From: Alphaproteobacteria bacterium
GTDB taxonomy: Bacteria > Pseudomonadota > Alphaproteobacteria > MPNO01 > VGEU01
Assembly (NCBI GenBank): GCA_016869145.1
Contig: VGEU01000020.1
Coordinates: 1 to 39,630 of the forward strand
Direction of reading: 5' to 3'
DNA length: 39,630 nt
Part shown: in pieces, positions 22,162 through 30,430 of the stretch
Layout: each line of letters starts with the position of its first letter
Position numbering within the stretch: the first letter of the stretch is position 1
The notes under the pieces: generated by a model
Told to the model about the DNA's origin: nothing
What the model saw: only the letters and a program-made list of their open reading frames with translations
Database searches by the model: none
Program-made: the position numbers and the translations under genes

Positions 22162-24831
22162 ATGGAAAAGACCTATCGGCCCGCCGAGGTCGAAGCCCGG
22201 CAATATGCCCGTTGGGAGGAGGCCGGCGCCTTCGCCTCGGCCGCGACACGGGCGGCGGGCGAGACGAACGCCGTGCCCTACACGATCGTCATCCCGCCGC
22301 CGAACGTCACCGGCAGCCTCCATATCGGGCACGCGCTCAACAACACCCTGCAGGACATCCTGATCCGCTATCGCCGCATGCGCGGACGCGATGCCTTGTG
22401 GCAACCGGGCACAGACCACGCCGGCATCGCGACCCAGATGGTCGTCGAGCGCCAACTCGCGGCCGACGGCAAGACGCGGCACGATCTCGGCCGCGACGCG
22501 TTCATCGACCGGGTCTGGCGGTGGAAGGCGGAATCGGGCGGCACGATCATCGGCCAGCTCCGCCGCCTCGGCGCGAGCTGCGACTGGGCGCGCGAACGGT
22601 TCACGATGGACGAGGGGTTGAGCGAGGCGGTGCGCTGCGTCTTCGTCACCCTGCACAAGGAAGGCCTCGTCTACCGCGACAAGCGGCTGGTGAACTGGGA
22701 CCCGCGGCTCCACACGGCGGTCTCCGATCTCGAGGTGCAGCAGCGCGAGGAGAAGGGGAAGCTCTGGTATTTCCGCTACCCGGTCGAGGGCGGCGACGGC
22801 GTCCACATCACCATCGCGACGACGCGGCCCGAGACGATGCTCGGCGACACCGCGGTCGCCGTGCATCCCGATGACGAGCGCCACCGCGCGCTGGTCGGCC
22901 GCCACGTGATCCTGCCGATCGTCGGCCGGCGCATCCCGATCCTCGCCGATCCGATGAGCGATCCCGAGAAGGGCTCGGGCGCGGTCAAGATCACGCCCGC
23001 GCACGACTTCAACGATTTCGAGCTCGGACGTCGCCACGATCTCCCGATGGTCGACATCTTCGACGTCAACGCGGCGCTCAACGACAACGTGCCCGCCGGC
23101 TATCGCGGGCTCGACCGGTTCGTCGCGCGCGAGAAGATCGTCGCGGAGATGGAAGCGCTCGGGCTCCTCGAGAGGATCGACGACCACGTGCTGATGCTTC
23201 CCTATGGCGATCGCTCCGGCGTCGTGATCGAGCCGCGGCTCACCGACCAGTGGTTCGTCGATGCGGCGACGCTCGCGAGACCGGCGATCGAGGCGGTCGA
23301 GGCGGGTCGCATCCGCTTCGTGCCGCGGCATTGGGAGAGCACCTATTTCGACTGGATGCGGAACATCCAGCCGTGGTGCGTGTCGCGCCAGATCTGGTGG
23401 GGCCACCAGATCCCGGCCTGGTACGGTCCGGACGGCACGATCTTCGTCGAGATGACCGAGGCGGAAGCGCTGTGCGCCGCGGCGAAGCACTACGGCCGCG
23501 ACACCGACCTCGTCCGCGACGCCGACGTGCTCGACACCTGGTTCTCCTCGGCGCTGTGGCCGTTCTCGACGCTGGGCTGGCCGGAGCAATCGCCCGCGCT
23601 CGCCCGCTACTACCCGACCGATGTCCTGGTGACCGGCTTCGACATCATCTTCTTCTGGGTCGCCCGGATGATCATGATGGGCATGCACTTCATGCACGAC
23701 GTGCCGTTCCGCATCGTCTACATCCATGCGCTCGTGCGCGACGCGCAAGGCCAGAAGATGTCGAAAAGCAAGGGGAACGTGCTCGATCCCCTGGTGCTCA
23801 TCGACGAGTACGGCGCCGATGCGCTCCGCTTCACGCTCACCGCCTTCGCCGCGCAGGGGCGCGACATCAAGCTCTCGACGGGCCGCATCGAGGGCTACCG
23901 CAACTTCGTCACCAAGATCTGGAACGCCTCGCGCTACGCCGAGATGAACGGCTGTGCGGCGGTGCCGGATTTCGATCCCGCGTCGGGTCGGCTCACGGTG
24001 GACCGCTGGATCGTCGGTGCGCTCGCCGATGCGGTCCGGCGCACCGAGGAGGCGATCGAGGATTACCGCTTCAACGAGGCGGCGCAGGCGGCCTACACCT
24101 TCGTCTGGCACACGTTCTGCGACTGGTATCTCGAGTTCACCAAGCCGATCCTCGCCGAAGGCGACGCGGCGGCGAAGGCCGAGGTGCGCGCAACGACGGC
24201 CTGGGTGCTCGACACGATCTTGAAACTCCTGCACCCAATGATGCCGTTCGTGACCGAGGAGCTCTGGGACAATCGCGCGCCCGCGGGCCGACCCCGGAAG
24301 GCGATGCTGGTGTCCGAAAGCTGGCCCGTGCTCGATCCGTCGCTCGTCGATCCTCTGGCGAAGATCGAGATGGACTGGGTCGTCCGCCTGATCTCTGGCG
24401 TCCGCACCATGCGGGCCGAGATGAACGTCCCGCCGGCGGCGAAGATCGAACTCCTCGTCGATGGTGCGCTGTCCGAAACGCTCCGACGCCTCGAGACCCA
24501 TCGCGAGCTGATCGTCAGGCTCGCGCGTCTTTCGAGCGCTGCGGCGCTCGCCGGCCCGGCGCCGGCCGAGGCGGCCCGGCTCGTCCTCGACGAGGCGACC
24601 GTGATCCTTCCCTTGGGCGGCGTCATCGACATCGCGCAGGAGCGGGCCCGTCTCCGCAAGGAGATCGGTCGCCTCGAGCGGGAGATCGACGGCATCGACA
24701 AGAAGCTCGGCAACGCCAACTTTGTCGCCCGCGCGCCGGAGGAGGTGGTCGAGGAGAATCGCGAACGCCGCGCCGAGTTCGAGACGACGCGCGCGCGTCT
24801 GTCGGAGGCGCTCGTCCAGCTCGGCGTCTGA
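22162..24831 (+). CDS. valS: Valyl-tRNA synthetase, 889 aa
   Basis: Charges tRNA-Val in the cytosol (class Ia). Visible are HIGH at residues 54-57 in [12 protein letters not shown], the CP1 editing domain ([19 protein letters not shown] and [19 protein letters not shown]), [15 protein letters not shown], and [12 protein letters not shown] at 532-543. The anticodon-binding domain is followed by a C-terminal coiled coil from about residue 820 ([23 protein letters not shown] ... [16 protein letters not shown]) that ValRS uses to grip tRNA. Length is normal for the alphaproteobacterial form. Start ATG 22162 gives the usual [11 protein letters not shown] opening. An enoyl-CoA hydratase-like gene follows after 25 bases. 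Confidence 0.97.
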
Positions 24832-24856
24832 TCCCACCCGTATTGCGGAGGCGTCC

Positions 24857-25666
24857 ATGACCAAGACCTATCCCGGCATCGAGCGGCTGCAGCTCGAGTT
24901 CGTCGCGCCGCGCGTTCTCCAGGTGACGCTCGACAGCCCAGGCCGGCTCAACGCGACCGATGCCAAGATGCACGGCGAGCTCGCCGAGATCTGGCGCCAC
25001 GCGGATGCCGATCCCGAGGTGTCGAGCATCCTGATCCGCGGCGCCGGCAAGGCGTTCTCCGCCGGCGGCGATCTCGACCTGGTCCAGGCGATGACCGAGG
25101 ACTTCCAGGTCCTGACGCGCGTTTGGCGCGAGGCACGCGACATCGTCTACAACGTCATCAACTGCTCGAAGCCGGTGGTCTCGGCGATCCATGGGCCGGC
25201 GGTCGGCGCCGGCCTCGTCTGCGCGCTTCTCGCCGATGTCTCGGTCGCGGCGAAGACCGCGCGCATCATCGACGGCCATACCCGGCTCGGCGTCGCCGCC
25301 GGCGATCACGCGACGATCGTGTGGCCACTCCTCTGCGGCATGGCGAAGGCGAAATACTATCTCCTCACCTGCGAGCCCCTGTCGGGCGAGGAGGCCGAGC
25401 GCATCGGCCTCGTCTCGCTCTGCGTCGAGGACGATAAGTTGATGGAGACCGCGATTGGCGTCACCAAGCGCCTCGCCGCCGGCTCGCCAACGGCGATGCG
25501 GTGGACCAAGTACACGCTCAACAACTGGCTCCGCATGGCGGGGCCTTCGTTCGATGCCTCGCTCGGGCTCGAGATGCTGGGCTTCACCGGGCCCGACGCG
25601 CGCGAGGGCCTCGCCTCGCTCCGCGAGAAGCGCGGGCCCCGGTTCTCGACCGATTCCCCAGTTTGA
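24857..25666 (+). CDS. Enoyl-CoA hydratase/isomerase family protein, 269 aa
   Basis: A crotonase-fold enzyme acting on an acyl-CoA (hydration, isomerisation or cleavage). The oxyanion-hole segments are clear: [15 protein letters not shown] and [22 protein letters not shown]. At the position of the second catalytic Glu there is [14 protein letters not shown], so the hydratase Glu pair is incomplete. This is common in family members that are not true enoyl-CoA hydratases. The late motif [14 protein letters not shown] is standard. ATG 24857 has GGAGG 6 bases upstream. It is 25 bases downstream of valS and 42 bases upstream of a flavin-reductase-like gene, and may be read with both. The exact reaction is unknown. 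Confidence 0.88.
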
Positions 25667-25708: not shown

Positions 25709-26401
25709 ATGTTCTACGAGACCGAGAAGAACAATCACGGGCTCAAATACAACCCGTACAAGTCGATCGTGATCCCGCGGCCGATCGGCTGGATCTCGAC
25801 GATCAGCCACGACGGCATCGTGAACCTGGCGCCGTTCAGCCAGTTCAACAATCTCGGCTACGATCCGCCTTATGTGATGTTCTCGGCCTCGACGCACCCG
25901 GACGGCGCGCGCAACAAGGATAGCGTGCACAACGCCCAGATGACCGGCGAGTTCGTCGTCAACATGGCGACCTACGAGCTCCGCGAGGCGGTCAGCAAGT
26001 CGTCCTATTACCTGCCGCCGGAGGTCGATGAGTTCGACTATGCCGGGCTCGAGAAGGCGCCGTCGGTGCTCGTCAAGCCGCCGCGCGTCGCGGCCTCGCC
26101 GATCCATCTCGAATGCGTGTTCCACCAGACCGTGGTGCTGCCCGGCTATTCGATCAACAACATCTGCAACGTGGTGATCGGCCGTGTCGTCGGCGTCCAC
26201 ATCCGCGACGACGTTCTGACCGCCGACGGCCGCATCGACGTCCTCAAGGTGCGCCCGATCGCGCGTCTCGGCTATCACGACTACACCTCGGTCGATTCCA
26301 TCTTCACGATGAAGATCGACGAGACCGCGTTCAGCGAGCAGCTCAAGGCCGGTCTCGGCGGCGAGGCCAAGGGCAAGCGCCCGCGCCAGGCCGCGGAATA
26401 G
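25709..26401 (+). CDS. Flavin reductase-like (FMN-binding split-barrel) protein, 230 aa
   Basis: A split-barrel flavoprotein of the flavin-reductase-like family (PF01613) that binds FMN and reduces it, or uses it, with NAD(P)H. Typical sequence includes IPRPIGWISTISHDGIVNLAPFSQFNNLGYDPPYVMFSAS near the N-terminus, then HNAQMTGEFVVNM and HLECVFHQTVVLPG, and finally RPIARLGYHDYTSVDSIFTM. A very strong ribosome site (GGGAGGAG) precedes ATG 25709. Soluble, with a Lys/Arg-rich tail. A TATAGT box 25 bases upstream of the ATG suggests possible independent transcription, but no -35 is evident. It converges with the PaaK-like gene (8 bases between stops). It could serve a two-component monooxygenase or a corrinoid enzyme; none is proven. 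Confidence 0.88.
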   Translation: MFYETEKNNHGLKYNPYKSIVIPRPIGWISTISHDGIVNLAPFSQFNNLGYDPPYVMFSASTHPDGARNKDSVHNAQMTGEFVVNMATYELREAVSKSSYYLPPEVDEFDYAGLEKAPSVLVKPPRVAASPIHLECVFHQTVVLPGYSINNICNVVIGRVVGVHIRDDVLTADGRIDVLKVRPIARLGYHDYTSVDSIFTMKIDETAFSEQLKAGLGGEAKGKRPRQAAE

Positions 26402-26409
26402 GCGCCCTT

Positions 26410-27720
26410 TCAGCCGCGCGTGTCGACGAAGCGCGGCGCCTTGACCGAGGATTCGAACTCCTTCGCGAGCGTGCCGACCGCGATGACGACGACCTCGGGC
26501 GTGAGCTCAAACGTCGCCTTGGTCGCCGCGACGATCGCCGCGGTCGTCGCGGCCGAATCGGCGCCGCGCTTGATCTCGACCGACAGCCTGAGCCCGTCGA
26601 TCCCCTTGGCGTCGGCCATCGCCTCGGCCTTGAAGTCATTGACGGCGGTGTTCGCGAACAGGAAGTCCTCGAACTCCTGGTGGTTGATGTTGACGCCGCG
26701 CACCTTGAAGAAGCCGGCGGTGCGATGGGCGTGGCGGATCAGGGGAAAGACGCCGAACAGGCCGTCATTGCGCCCCTCGCTCTGGCGGATCACGATGTCG
26801 CCCGAGTTCCAGCGGATGAACGGCGTCGCGTTGTTGGTGTAGAGCGGCGTGACAAGGAGCGTGCCGGGCGTGCCGTCGGGCACGGGCTTCCAGGTCTCCG
26901 GGTCGACGACCTCGATATGGGCGAGATCGGTCCAGATGTGGAAGCCCTCGTTCAAGGGGCTCTCGGCGCCCATCATCGAGCATTCGGTCATGCCGAAGCA
27001 GTCGAACAGGCGGGCGCCCCACTCGCGCTCGATCTTGGCGCGCTTGGCGGCCGAGATCGGCTCGGCGGTCGTGAGGATCCGCTCGACCGACCCGGCGGCG
27101 AGATCGATGCCCGAGGCCTCGGCGAGATTGGCGAGGTGGAGGGCATAGGACGACATCCCCATCCAGAGCGAGGGCTTCATCGTCCGGATCAATTCGAGCT
27201 GGAGCGCCGACGGTGTCGCCGCGCCGGCGCCCGCCCACACCATGCCGATGCCTTCCTCGCGGCCGGCGCGCGCCCACATATGGCCGGCGGGATGGATGCC
27301 GAGCGGGAAGGAGAGGTGCGCCGTGTTGCCCGCCAGGGTCCCGGTGCAGAGATAGGTGCGCGTGAAGCCCACCATGCAGTAGCGGATGTCCTCGAAGGTG
27401 CGGGCGTAGAAGAGGGGCTTTCCGGTCGCGCCGCCGGAGCGCCAGAACTCGCAGACCTCCTCGGGCCGGCAGATGCGGAAATCGCTGTAGAACGCCTCCA
27501 CCGTCATCGCGCGGAGAGCGTCCTTGTGGAGGATCGGGATCTTCGCCCATTCCTCCGGGTCGTCGAGCCGGTCGAGCCGCACATGATCGAGCCGGCCCTT
27601 CCAGAACGGGGCGCGCCGCGCCTTCTCGACCGCAAGCCGCATCTGGCGGCGCTGGATCGCCGCGATCTCGGCCCGAGATTTCGGGATGGGGAGAAGCTCG
27701 CTCGACGGCGAAAGCGTCAA
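26410..27720 (-). CDS. PaaK-like adenylate-forming enzyme (phenylacetate-CoA ligase family), 436 aa
   Basis: A member of the ANL superfamily close to phenylacetate-CoA ligases: it activates a carboxylate with ATP and usually transfers it to CoA. Visible are the P-loop SGGATGKP (residues 95-102), FDCFGMTECSMMGAESP (the Y/FG-x-TE motif), and RWNSGDIVI, which carries the conserved Asp. The C-terminal half from about residue 330 holds FFKVRGVNINHQEFEDFLF in place of the usual 'GrgDdvi..rG.ni.P..iE' hinge. The start is TTG 27720, with GAAGGA 6 bases upstream and a TTGA overlap with the upstream stop, so translation is coupled to the two RdhA/QueG-like genes. The carboxylate substrate is unknown. 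Confidence 0.85.
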   Translation of the reverse strand: MTLSPSSELLPIPKSRAEIAAIQRRQMRLAVEKARRAPFWKGRLDHVRLDRLDDPEEWAKIPILHKDALRAMTVEAFYSDFRICRPEEVCEFWRSGGATGKPLFYARTFEDIRYCMVGFTRTYLCTGTLAGNTAHLSFPLGIHPAGHMWARAGREEGIGMVWAGAGAATPSALQLELIRTMKPSLWMGMSSYALHLANLAEASGIDLAAGSVERILTTAEPISAAKRAKIEREWGARLFDCFGMTECSMMGAESPLNEGFHIWTDLAHIEVVDPETWKPVPDGTPGTLLVTPLYTNNATPFIRWNSGDIVIRQSEGRNDGLFGVFPLIRHAHRTAGFFKVRGVNINHQEFEDFLFANTAVNDFKAEAMADAKGIDGLRLSVEIKRGADSAATTAAIVAATKATFELTPEVVVIAVGTLAKEFESSVKAPRFVDTRG

Positions 27721-28721
27721 GGCGTGTCCTTCGGGGATGGTGTGCGGCCGATCCAGCGCGCCTGCGCCGTCCGGCCCGGCGACACCACGCCGGCCTTCTC
27801 GTCGGCGACCATGCGGGCGAGGCGGGCGCGCTTCTCGGGCGTGTCCTCGGGCATCGTCTCGAGCGCGTCCTTGTAGAACCGCGCGTAGTCGGCCCCGACC
27901 GGACAGACATCCTGGCAGCGCCGGCAGCCGGTGACGACACCGGCGCCGCGGAGGATCGACTGCCACAGGTTGAAGCTGGTCTCGGAGCGGATCAGCTCCA
28001 TCTTGGCGTCGAGACCGTTGGCATCGAGCACCGTGCCGATGTGCTCGGCGAGCTGCGCGAACCCGTGCGGCGAGCGGTAGCGGTCGCACGTCGACCAGTC
28101 ACGCGCCCAGTGGCCGACGACATCGCCGGGGCAGGTCGAGAGGCAGCGCCCGCATTCCGGCCCGAGGCAGAGCGCCTCGGTCATCGGCCTGTCGACCGCG
28201 CAGTCGATCGACGAGAGGATCGCGCTCAGGATCACGCGCGGGCCGAACTCGGGCGTGAGGAGCTGGAGGTTGAGCCCGAGCGTCCCGAGCCCGGCCTCGA
28301 CGGCGGCGTGGTTGAGCGAGAGGAGCGTCGTCATGTGCGCGCTCGGATCGTTCCGGTAGCGCCACGGATCGACATGGGTCGGCGGGATGATGATCGCCGG
28401 GTAGCCCTTGTCCTCGAGCCAGTAGACGAGCTCGAGCGAGGCCTCCTCGAGCGCGGTCAGCGTGAGCTCGTCGTTGTAGTATTTGTGCCGTTCGTCCCAG
28501 CGCGCGAGCCGGGTGGTGCCGGCGGTGTAGTGCTTGGCGAGGACGATCACGCGGCCGGCGTCGAGCTCGGTGATGTCGGAGGGCCGTCGCGGGTCGGCGG
28601 GATCGGGCGGGTGCGTGTCCATCACCGTGCCGTCGGCGATGCCGACGAGGTCGACGCCGAGCGATTTGGCCTTGGCCTTGATCTCGTCGGCGCCGAGCGG
28701 GGCCTTGAACGCGCCGATCAT
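27717..28721 (-). CDS. RdhA/QueG superfamily double-[4Fe-4S] protein, paralogue B, 334 aa
   Basis: Related to reductive dehalogenases and epoxyqueuosine reductase. The segment VEAGLGTLGLNLQLLTPEFGPRVILSAILSS is the conserved corrinoid-domain end. It is followed by the eight-Cys double-cluster layout: C185-x4-C190-x2-C193-x3-C197-P, C212, then C266-x2-C269-x3-C273-P. The N-terminus (ADEIKAKAKSLGVDLVGIAD) matches the first helix-strand of the same family. There is no Tat or Sec signal, so it should be cytosolic. QueG's C-terminal HEAT-repeat extension is absent. ATG 28721 shares a base with the upstream paralogue's stop (TGATG). The substrate is unknown; I would not call it a dehalogenase on this evidence. 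Confidence 0.78.
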   Translation of the reverse strand: MIGAFKAPLGADEIKAKAKSLGVDLVGIADGTVMDTHPPDPADPRRPSDITELDAGRVIVLAKHYTAGTTRLARWDERHKYYNDELTLTALEEASLELVYWLEDKGYPAIIIPPTHVDPWRYRNDPSAHMTTLLSLNHAAVEAGLGTLGLNLQLLTPEFGPRVILSAILSSIDCAVDRPMTEALCLGPECGRCLSTCPGDVVGHWARDWSTCDRYRSPHGFAQLAEHIGTVLDANGLDAKMELIRSETSFNLWQSILRGAGVVTGCRRCQDVCPVGADYARFYKDALETMPEDTPEKRARLARMVADEKAGVVSPGRTAQARWIGRTPSPKDTP

Positions 28722-29761
28722 CACTCCTTCTCCACGGTATCGGCACCGGCGGTGGCCGCGGCGGTGGCGCGCGCGGCCTGCTCCTTCTTGAACGCCTGGA
28801 GCTGGCGCGCGACCATGCCCTTGTAGCCTTCGGGGCCGACCCAGCGTTTGTTCCAGTCGTTGAGGCCGGCGACCTCGGCGCCCGATTTGCGCGCGTCCTT
28901 GTAGCCCTGCGCCTTCGCGATCTTCTCCGGCGTCTTCTCCGGGATGTGCTTCTGGATGTCGGCGAGATGGGCGTGATAGTCGTTGCCGACCGGGCATACC
29001 GCGAGGCAGCGCGGGCAGTCGCCGAACGAGCCGACGACGCGGAGCAGCCCCTGCCAGAAGCCGAACAGCTCGCGGTCGGCGGCGAGCTTCTTCTGCTGGT
29101 CTGGGCTCGCCTTCGAGAAGTGCTCCCAGAACTTGATGATGGTCGAGAAGCCGAACTCCTGCGCCTCCGTCGCGCAGGCGCGCTTGTCGATCCCGAAATG
29201 CAGCACCGCGTCCGACGGGCACGAATAGAGGCAGCGGCTGCACGATTCGCCGATGCAGACCTGCTCGGTGATCGGGCTGTCGGCCTCGAGCTCGAGCTCG
29301 GTCAGGATCCCGGTCAGATAGACGCGCGGCCCGAACTCGGGGGTGAGGATGTTGACCTCGAGGCCGAACGTGCCGAGGCCGGCCTCGATGCCGAGATGGC
29401 GGGTCGAGAGCCGGCCATAGCTCGCGCGCTTGTAGTTCCAGTCGGTCTCCTGCGCCGCGGTGACGAAGGAGGGGTGGCCTTCGCGCTCCAGCGCCTCGGC
29501 GAGCTTGTAGGCGATGCGGTCCATCTTCCGCAGCACCAGCATGTCGATGTACTGCACCGGCACGTTGGTCTTGCAGCGGAAGGCGCCGACTGGGATGCGC
29601 TTGACGACGACGATGACGCTCTTGCAATAGGGCGAGATGCGCTCGGGCGTCTGCGGCCAGCGCGGGTCGGGCGGAAAGGCGTTCAGCGTCTTGGCACTCG
29701 CGATGCCGACGAGATCGGCGCCGAGATCCTTGGCGAGCTGTTTTACGGCCGCAGCATCCAC
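28721..29761 (-). CDS. RdhA/QueG superfamily double-[4Fe-4S] protein, paralogue A, 346 aa
   Basis: First of the tandem pair. The corrinoid-type segment IEAGLGTFGLEVNILTPEFGPRVYLTGILTELELEADSPI is closer to RdhA (TPEYGPR, D-x-P) than to QueG. The cluster cysteines are C169-x4-C174-x2-C177-x3-C181-P, C196, then C249-x2-C252-x3-C256-P, the same spacing as in paralogue B. The C-terminal 70 residues are Lys/Ala-rich and differ from B. There is no twin-arginine signal, and no membrane-anchor (RdhB-like) gene is nearby, which argues against respiratory dehalogenation. ATG 29761 has GGGAG 8 bases upstream. It lies 51 bases downstream of a 2-oxoglutarate-oxygenase-like gene on the same strand and overlaps paralogue B by one base. 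Confidence 0.8.
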   Translation of the reverse strand: MDAAAVKQLAKDLGADLVGIASAKTLNAFPPDPRWPQTPERISPYCKSVIVVVKRIPVGAFRCKTNVPVQYIDMLVLRKMDRIAYKLAEALEREGHPSFVTAAQETDWNYKRASYGRLSTRHLGIEAGLGTFGLEVNILTPEFGPRVYLTGILTELELEADSPITEQVCIGESCSRCLYSCPSDAVLHFGIDKRACATEAQEFGFSTIIKFWEHFSKASPDQQKKLAADRELFGFWQGLLRVVGSFGDCPRCLAVCPVGNDYHAHLADIQKHIPEKTPEKIAKAQGYKDARKSGAEVAGLNDWNKRWVGPEGYKGMVARQLQAFKKEQAARATAAATAGADTVEKE

Positions 29762-29812
29762 GCGACACTCCCGTGAGCTAGGATCGTGGAGGGTCGCACA
29801 GCGGCGCCCGGC

Positions 29813-30430
29813 TCACAAGCCGGCGGCGGTCGCGAGCGCGAAGTTCCAGGCGATGCTGATCCGCGGTCGCTCGCCCCGGTAGACATGGACGAAGTGGACG
29901 ATCTGGCTCGGGAAACCGAACATCAGACCGTCGACATGCTGCGGCATGACCGCCTGGGACAACCGTCCGGCCTCCTCGTGGCAGCACAGTGTCAGCCGTG
30001 GATCGACGAAGGCGAAACGACCGTTATGCGGATTTGTCGGCTCATTGGTGCCGAGATCGAGAAAATAGACGACCGAGACCGTGGATCGGGTATGGCTGTG
30101 CGGCTGTCCGTATTCGCCCGAGGCGGTCACGTTGGCCCAGCTACCGACGAGGCGGGTATCGCGGCTATATCCCTTGCGCACGAAGGCGCACGCGCGCTCG
30201 GTCAGAAGCGTGGCGGCGGGTACGTTCCAGCGCTCGAGGTCGTAGGCCTTGGCGCCACCCGAACCGGGAAGGCCGACCCCGGTCGCCGCGGTGCGCGCCA
30301 GGCACGCCGCGATCAGCGCGGGATGATACGCCGCGGTGTCGTCGAACAGGGTCCACGGGAAGGCCGCGTGACCGATGGTCCCGATCGACTGTCTGGGAGG
30401 CCACACCGGCGGCATCGGCGCGAGGCTCAT
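29813..30430 (-). CDS. 2OG-Fe(II) oxygenase-like protein (TIGR02466-like), 205 aa
   Basis: Resembles the TIGR02466 group of putative 2-oxoglutarate/Fe(II) dioxygenases, seen in many bacteria and phages but with unknown substrate. The double-stranded beta-helix features are [31 protein letters not shown] (with H-x-H iron-ligand candidates), [10 protein letters not shown], and [31 protein letters not shown], which carries the distal His and the Arg that would hold 2-oxoglutarate. The N-terminal 80 residues are less recognisable. No signal peptide. It diverges from ilvD and is the likely first gene of the RdhA/QueG-like operon, although the 51-base gap could hold a separate promoter. Confidence 0.75.

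Follow-up and report, generated by a model that had tools for sequence, protein, structure and literature searches.

A paired QueG/RdhA-like dicluster protein module with a PaaK-like CoA ligase suggests a possible, so far undescribed reductive step in the aerobic degradation of aromatics

Two activities are known among class III cobalamin enzymes: the dehalogenation carried out by RdhA and the reduction of epoxyqueuosine by QueG. Catabolic RdhAs act in aerobic degradation and have a duplicated core in which the second copy is vestigial, an arrangement that mimics the dimer of respiratory RdhAs (PMC10463259). The pathway described for Azoarcus evansii, which uses a fused FAD-monooxygenase/OYE protein of the salicylyl-CoA 5-hydroxylase/2-aminobenzoyl-CoA monooxygenase-reductase family (NF006101, here ACMR), takes 2-aminobenzoate via its coenzyme A (CoA) ester to a non-aromatic ketone (PMC4539516). 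As described, it has no QueG/RdhA-like step. Here we analyzed a stretch of 39,630 nt (the window; contig VGEU01000020.1 of the alphaproteobacterial assembly GCA_016869145.1) encoding two paralogous QueG/RdhA-like proteins, A and B, followed by a PaaK-like CoA ligase, C:

28721..29761, minus strand: A, a QueG/RdhA-superfamily dicluster protein of 346 aa with a GTG start, a predicted N-terminal corrinoid-type fold and two [4Fe-4S] motifs
27717..28721, minus strand: B, a paralogue of A of 334 aa, with a 1-base overlap with A and eight Cys as in A
26410..27720, minus strand: C, a PaaK-like AMP-forming (ANL) CoA ligase of 436 aa, whose TTG start overlaps the B stop (TTGA)

The open reading frames (ORFs) of A, B, C and the upstream gene D (29813-30430) were all confirmed, and all lie on the minus strand. 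The stop codon of A (TGA, 28723-28721) shares one base with the B start codon (ATG from 28721), and TTGA at 27720-27717 is common to the stop of B and the start of C. A and B are 35% identical across 316 aligned residues and have the same cysteine layout, C-x4-C-x2-C-x3-CP ... C ... C-x2-C-x3-CP, formed by C169, 174, 177, 181, 196, 249, 252 and 256 in A and by C185, 190, 193, 197, 212, 266, 269 and 273 in B. A GLG-x2-GL ... TPEFGPR segment is found in both. The original prediction, made from the window alone, had read the four minus-strand genes, both overlaps, the eight-Cys layout and the shared segment correctly.

An alignment of A, used to search 84,980 species genomes of bacteria and archaea, recovered 80 loci (below, L numbers denote loci, G numbers genomes, and A+ and A- genomes with and without A). 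Most of the genomes are metagenome bins. The A-B loci belong mostly to uncultured Alphaproteobacteria (marine, sponge, soil and groundwater), and also to Beta- and Gammaproteobacteria, Rokubacteria and SAR324. The only cultured strain with A-B in this set is Amorphus coralli DSM 19760 (L050); a plasmid collection searched for a copy of the module in a cultured host gave no match. B directly follows A in 80 of the 80 named loci with a median gap of 1 nt, and in L109 and L082 a single ORF spans both (675 and 681 aa, respectively). Additional copies within a genome are likewise paired (G219, G303 and G311); the pair first noticed in the window is an obligate one. The gene pattern seen there is far from chance, since this adjacency holds throughout and none of the eight cluster cysteines varies among 73 A and 67 B sequences.

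In 70 of 76 testable loci (window counted), A-B has a CoA ligase gene no more than about 3 kb away. The trio of A, B and ligase thus recurs widely, and homologues of A and B do not usually occur without a ligase, an outcome in favour of the original prediction. By type, the testable loci have C in 62 cases and another AMP-binding ligase in 14, seven of these with both (window counted); the ligase in L109 belongs to the benzoate-CoA-ligase family (591 bits, cut-off 375). C-type ligases are present in 10 of 289 sampled Alphaproteobacteria, and all 10 are A+. A-B-C is a conserved module.

Against the QueG family (TIGR00276, cut-off 200) A scores 52.7 bits and B 41.0 bits, and against RdhA (TIGR02486, cut-off 160) the scores are 37.7 and 22.8 bits. 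On these scores both proteins are members of the QueG/RdhA (class III cobalamin) superfamily, as originally predicted, though below both family cut-offs. QueG is the best sequence match of A in NCBIfam and the PDB, and the two have in common that they are soluble and that a cobalamin-type domain precedes two [4Fe-4S] motifs. AlphaFold models of A and B (mean predicted local distance difference test scores 87 and 91) matched the cobalamin-binding (nitroreductase/MMACHC-type) fold, in keeping with the corrinoid-type domain of the original prediction: the matches include QueG, the RdhAs PceA and NpRdhA, and the B12-processing MMACHC (Foldseek; for A, 5.6e-11 to QueG and 5.7e-4 to MMACHC; for B, 8.9e-9 to NpRdhA and 3.7e-3 to MMACHC). 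Each of the QueG cluster ligands (184, 187, 190, 243; 194, 210, 236, 239; PMC4646009) has a counterpart in A/B.

The putative active sites differ from that of QueG. The QueG catalytic Asp (Asp130 in S. thermophilus) aligns with Ser114 of A in 72 of 73 sequences, and B has an insertion at this site that is not clearly alignable. Candidates for QueG Tyr101 of the Asp-Tyr-His motif, aligned by eye, are Y71 in A (72/73) and Y82 in B (62/67). Invariant residues specific to A are Q70, Q104-E105-T106, Y115 and S119-T120-R121-H122 (73 sequences), while those specific to B are R78, K80 and N83-D84-E85, with Y82, T115-H116, D118 and W120 near-invariant (67 sequences). The putative active-site segments of B would be R78-H79-K80-x-Y82-N83-D84-E85 and T115-H116-x-D118-P-W120. 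Two different and strongly conserved sites argue against either subunit being a dead copy.

At about a quarter of the family cut-off, A also differs from QueG in its C-terminus: only 61–90 residues follow the last Cys, modelled as isolated helices, and no HEAT repeats were found in A or B, in line with the original prediction. The pair differs further from QueG in consisting of two obligately paired paralogues, whose links are with a CoA ligase and with the catabolism of aromatic CoA esters. Compared with the RdhAs (respiratory PceA, catabolic NpRdhA/BhbA), A-B has a CoA ligase as neighbour and lacks an export signal, PceA Arg305 and a fused reductase. No RR motif or hydrophobic stretch of a twin-arginine (Tat) export signal could be read from the sequence at the N-termini of A and B, which run directly into the folded domain, and an RdhB membrane anchor gene is not a recurring neighbour among ORFs of at least 90 aa. 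A-B could mirror the duplicated core of catabolic RdhAs with two separate chains; one copy is vestigial in NpRdhA, whereas both halves of A-B have complete cluster ligands.

C scores 45.2 bits against PF00501, above the gathering cut-off of 29.9. Against PaaK (TIGR02155) it reaches 120 bits over the full length, short of the equivalog cut-off of 646, and it also aligns full length to solved PaaKs. The motifs SGG-x-TG-x-P, FGMTE and RG are conserved (alignment A7), as is the C-terminal Lys427, which we take to be the catalytic Lys of ANL enzymes. C differs from PaaK in its genomic partners, which are A-B or ACMR; PaaA occurs in none of the A+ genomes of the alphaproteobacterial sample.

ACMR lies within 10 kb of A-B in L031, L047, L055, L067, L090, L092 and L093, and we therefore tested for phyletic co-occurrence, with the ACMR base rate measured within Alphaproteobacteria. 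Among the 289 genomes, A is present in 11, from eight families (G248 by partial match only), and ACMR in 51, namely 50 above cut-off plus G033, whose copy is divided between two contig ends. ACMR is found in every one of the 11 A+ genomes, against 51/289 overall (hypergeometric p = 2e-9, shared ancestry ignored). The same was seen for 61 relatives, where ACMR is present in 11/11 A+ (two split across contigs) vs. 9/50 A- genomes (p = 4e-7, again ignoring ancestry). In a set of 50 A+ genomes covering Alpha-, Beta- and Gammaproteobacteria, Rokubacteria and SAR324, 47 encode a full-length ACMR; G339 has a partial one, G333 carries it as two separate halves, and only G345, a bin of 1.1 Mb, lacks it. 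As controls, PaaA was found in 32/289 Alphaproteobacteria and 0/11 A+ genomes, and the homogentisate dioxygenase HmgA in 35/289 and 3/11, those three from one genus. Neither control is linked to A in a comparable way, and a general confound with aromatic catabolism was rejected.

The co-occurrence with ACMR is the strongest clue to the function of A-B, one that the original prediction lacked, and its strictness points to ring chemistry on an aryl-CoA. C homologues (~50% identical) also adjoin ACMR in G018, G015, G009 and G033 (L120, L132, L144 and L184). The Azoarcus evansii pathway resembles the present systems in its CoA ligase, its FAD/OYE fusion and its beta-oxidation-type genes, and A-B-C appears as an addition in about one fifth of the sampled ACMR+ Alphaproteobacteria. 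Of 44 A+ genomes examined for MetH, 41 have it; most of them therefore use B12, which is weakly consistent with a cobalamin role.

Within the window's own genome, the neighbours of ACMR (L116, G000:C94), assigned by eye, include a LigB-type extradiol dioxygenase, a Rieske oxygenase and an FAD oxidoreductase, surroundings that differ from the Azoarcus-type cluster. Elsewhere in this genome a short contig (L178:4645-5853, G000:C158) encodes a further C-type ligase that shares 50% identity with C and has neither A-B nor ACMR nearby.

Taken together, these findings suggest that A-B-C adds a reductive step, so far undescribed, to the aerobic degradation of aromatics. A search of the open-licence literature for QueG-/RdhA-like proteins in connection with PaaK, kynureninase or aminobenzoyl-CoA turned up no account of the module. 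With somewhat less than even confidence, we propose that A-B is a heteromeric cobalamin/[4Fe-4S] reductase that acts on an aryl-CoA made by C and feeds ACMR-type catabolism. A and B would together make up a single enzyme, most probably heterodimeric, in which each QueG/RdhA-type subunit has two [4Fe-4S] clusters and at least one of the two has base-off cobalamin. C would convert an aromatic acid to its CoA thioester, an external donor would reduce the clusters of A-B, and Co(I) would attack or abstract a ring substituent of the aryl-CoA. This substituent would be lost reductively; a halide or hydroxyl is favoured, since its removal would be near known superfamily chemistry and would give an ACMR substrate. 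The product might be 2-aminobenzoyl-CoA or similar to salicyloyl-CoA, which the FAD-monooxygenase/OYE fusion would then hydroxylate and reduce for beta-oxidation-like breakdown. Pairing, fusion, ligase linkage, ACMR co-occurrence, fold and conserved cluster ligands were observed, and from these we infer the cobalamin occupancy, the heterodimer, the aryl-CoA substrate, the position upstream of ACMR and the bond cleaved.

Several points weigh against this proposal. The TM-scores of the fold matches are modest (~0.46) and the root-mean-square deviations across full alignments large, so the domain arrangement is uncertain and the domains alone can be trusted; the active-site loops 103-114 and 243-246 of A are modelled at low confidence. 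By analogy, a fold match need not mean cobalamin binding, as the vestigial domain copy of NpRdhA has a cobalamin-type fold without binding cobalamin (PMC10463259). The halogen hypothesis is conjectural, and the PceA catalytic Arg305 aligns with an invariant Tyr148 in A and with a non-polar residue in B. A conserved electron donor gene was looked for with A-B and none was found, and the ligases adjacent to A-B fall into two types. The A+ genomes are phylogenetically non-independent, which the p-values do not take into account. Finally, the ACMRs of A+ genomes are scattered over the ACMR tree instead of grouping together; the idea that the partner is one particular ACMR subclade was rejected, and the link is therefore to the pathway type and not to a single substrate.

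An unlikely alternative that nevertheless deserves attention is a corrinoid-free Fe-S enzyme, which would have kept the fold and the clusters, lost cobalamin, and served the CoA pathway as an electron-transfer or two-electron reduction module. The vestigial NpRdhA domain shows that the fold can persist in this way (PMC10463259), and the active-site residues specific to A and to B are unlike those of QueG and RdhA. However, many polar residues in the N-terminal domain of both subunits are invariant, as are the cluster ligands. Azoarcus ACMR uses NADH as its own electron source, and since it takes these electrons unaided, it needs no electron-transfer module. Rather improbable is a repair function, in which a QueG-like deoxygenase would convert dead-end or toxic side products of CoA-dependent aromatic oxygenases, for example 5-hydroxyanthraniloyl-CoA or the CoA ester of a ring epoxide, back to the aryl-CoA. 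QueG itself reduces an epoxide (PMC4646009), ACMR is reported to yield 5-hydroxyanthraniloyl-CoA when NADH is limiting (PMC3534580), and PaaA-like diiron genes are found near A-B in five loci (L044, L054, L072, L079 and L087). The dependence also runs in the direction expected for repair, as A-B requires the presence of ACMR but ACMR does not depend on A-B. Yet about 40 of the 51 ACMR+ genomes of the class sample manage without A-B, repair would call for neither a dedicated ligase C nor a transporter, and the catalytic Asp of QueG is replaced in A.

The original prediction had A-B reduce the carboxylate that the PaaK-like protein activates, by corrinoid or Fe-S chemistry. Its ligase linkage and its corrinoid-type fold stand, as both of the outcomes named in advance as refuting it failed to appear. 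Nothing points to carboxylate reduction itself, from the acyl-AMP or acyl-CoA to an aldehyde or lower, and we regard it as very improbable: although C shares an operon with A-B, strict co-occurrence with an aryl-CoA ring monooxygenase fits a CoA ester that is kept and not lost, and no aldehyde or alcohol dehydrogenase family is among the most frequent A-B neighbours. Just as improbable is an ordinary reductive dehalogenase or QueG next to an unrelated ligase. It would explain the superfamily membership, but not the low family scores, the missing HEAT domain and export signal, the obligate pairing or the restriction of C to A+ genomes.

Beside the module, the window contains the following genes:

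29813..30430, minus strand: D, a 2-oxoglutarate-Fe(II) oxygenase-like gene (PF13759), upstream of A on the same strand
25709..26401, plus strand: F, a flavin-reductase-like gene (PF01613), convergent with C
24722..25666, plus strand: an enoyl-CoA hydratase-family ORF with an uncertain start and a long 5' extension in the mechanical ORF

D, which ends 51 nt before the GTG start of A, had been counted as an operon member, and F had been put forward as a possible electron source. Neither idea held up: D has no match near A-B in the 80 other loci, and the only relative of F near A-B in 80 loci is a 36%-identical one in L093. Both were rejected as parts of the system as they are not conserved across the loci. 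D is probably not part of the A-B-C module, and F is unlikely as a dedicated electron donor because it is not a conserved partner.

Frequent neighbours of A-B are HAAT-type transporters, acyl-CoA dehydrogenases and enoyl-CoA hydratases, the last of which recur, as in the window, in about one quarter of the loci. A kynureninase is found near A-B-C in L040, L052, L054 and L060, and anthranilate or 3-hydroxyanthranilate is thus a possible feed. In 13 of 80 loci a transglutaminase-like protein is encoded near A or C, often immediately upstream of A or downstream of C (e.g., L052:2549-3328 and L046:13416-14048); it is possibly an amide hydrolase that frees the aromatic acid. Meth_synt_2 genes (cobalamin-independent methionine-synthase type) adjoin C-type ligases or A-B-C at L184:3233-4336, L179:7304-8494, L181:4782-5972 and L047:13818-14930, and the pathway may include a methyl- or alkyl-transfer step. 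In L041, L042 and L046 a trehalose cluster adjoins A-B; it was rejected as a partner, being synteny of close relatives. A-B-C in L076 lies in a 1.1-Mb bin labelled Dependentiae without ACMR or a related match; this bin is probably mis-assigned.

In G303 and G210 another C homologue adjoins two divergent QueG-like proteins, A2 and B2, which are 27–28% identical to A/B over parts:

L180:3953-5738, minus strand: A2-B2, a divergent QueG-like dicluster pair (290 + 303 aa) with no Pfam match, beside a C-type ligase
L182:7547-9335, plus strand: A2-B2, a divergent QueG-like dicluster pair (290 + 303 aa) with no Pfam match, beside a C-type ligase

The combination of a PaaK-like ligase and a dicluster pair has thus arisen or diversified more than once. 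A bolder version of our proposal, possible if doubtful, is that A-B would be a two-subunit cobalamin/[4Fe-4S] reductase of CoA thioesters, the first of its kind, which strips a halide or hydroxyl from aromatic acids in an aerobic, CoA-dependent manner before ring attack by ACMR, with A2-B2 showing diversification for other substrates. If true, a widespread third branch of class III cobalamin enzymes, obligately paired and linked to the catabolism of aromatic CoA esters, would broaden the known chemistry of the group and reveal how bacteria that respire oxygen reduce aromatic rings or substituents on them. It would also give a testable function to genes of many marine, sponge-associated, soil and groundwater Proteobacteria, the partners C-type ligase and ACMR narrowing the substrate to aromatic acids. 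A helix-turn-helix-like protein of 110 aa accompanies A2-B2 in both L180 and L182, and a similar small protein seems to be present near A-B in L033, L046 and L048.

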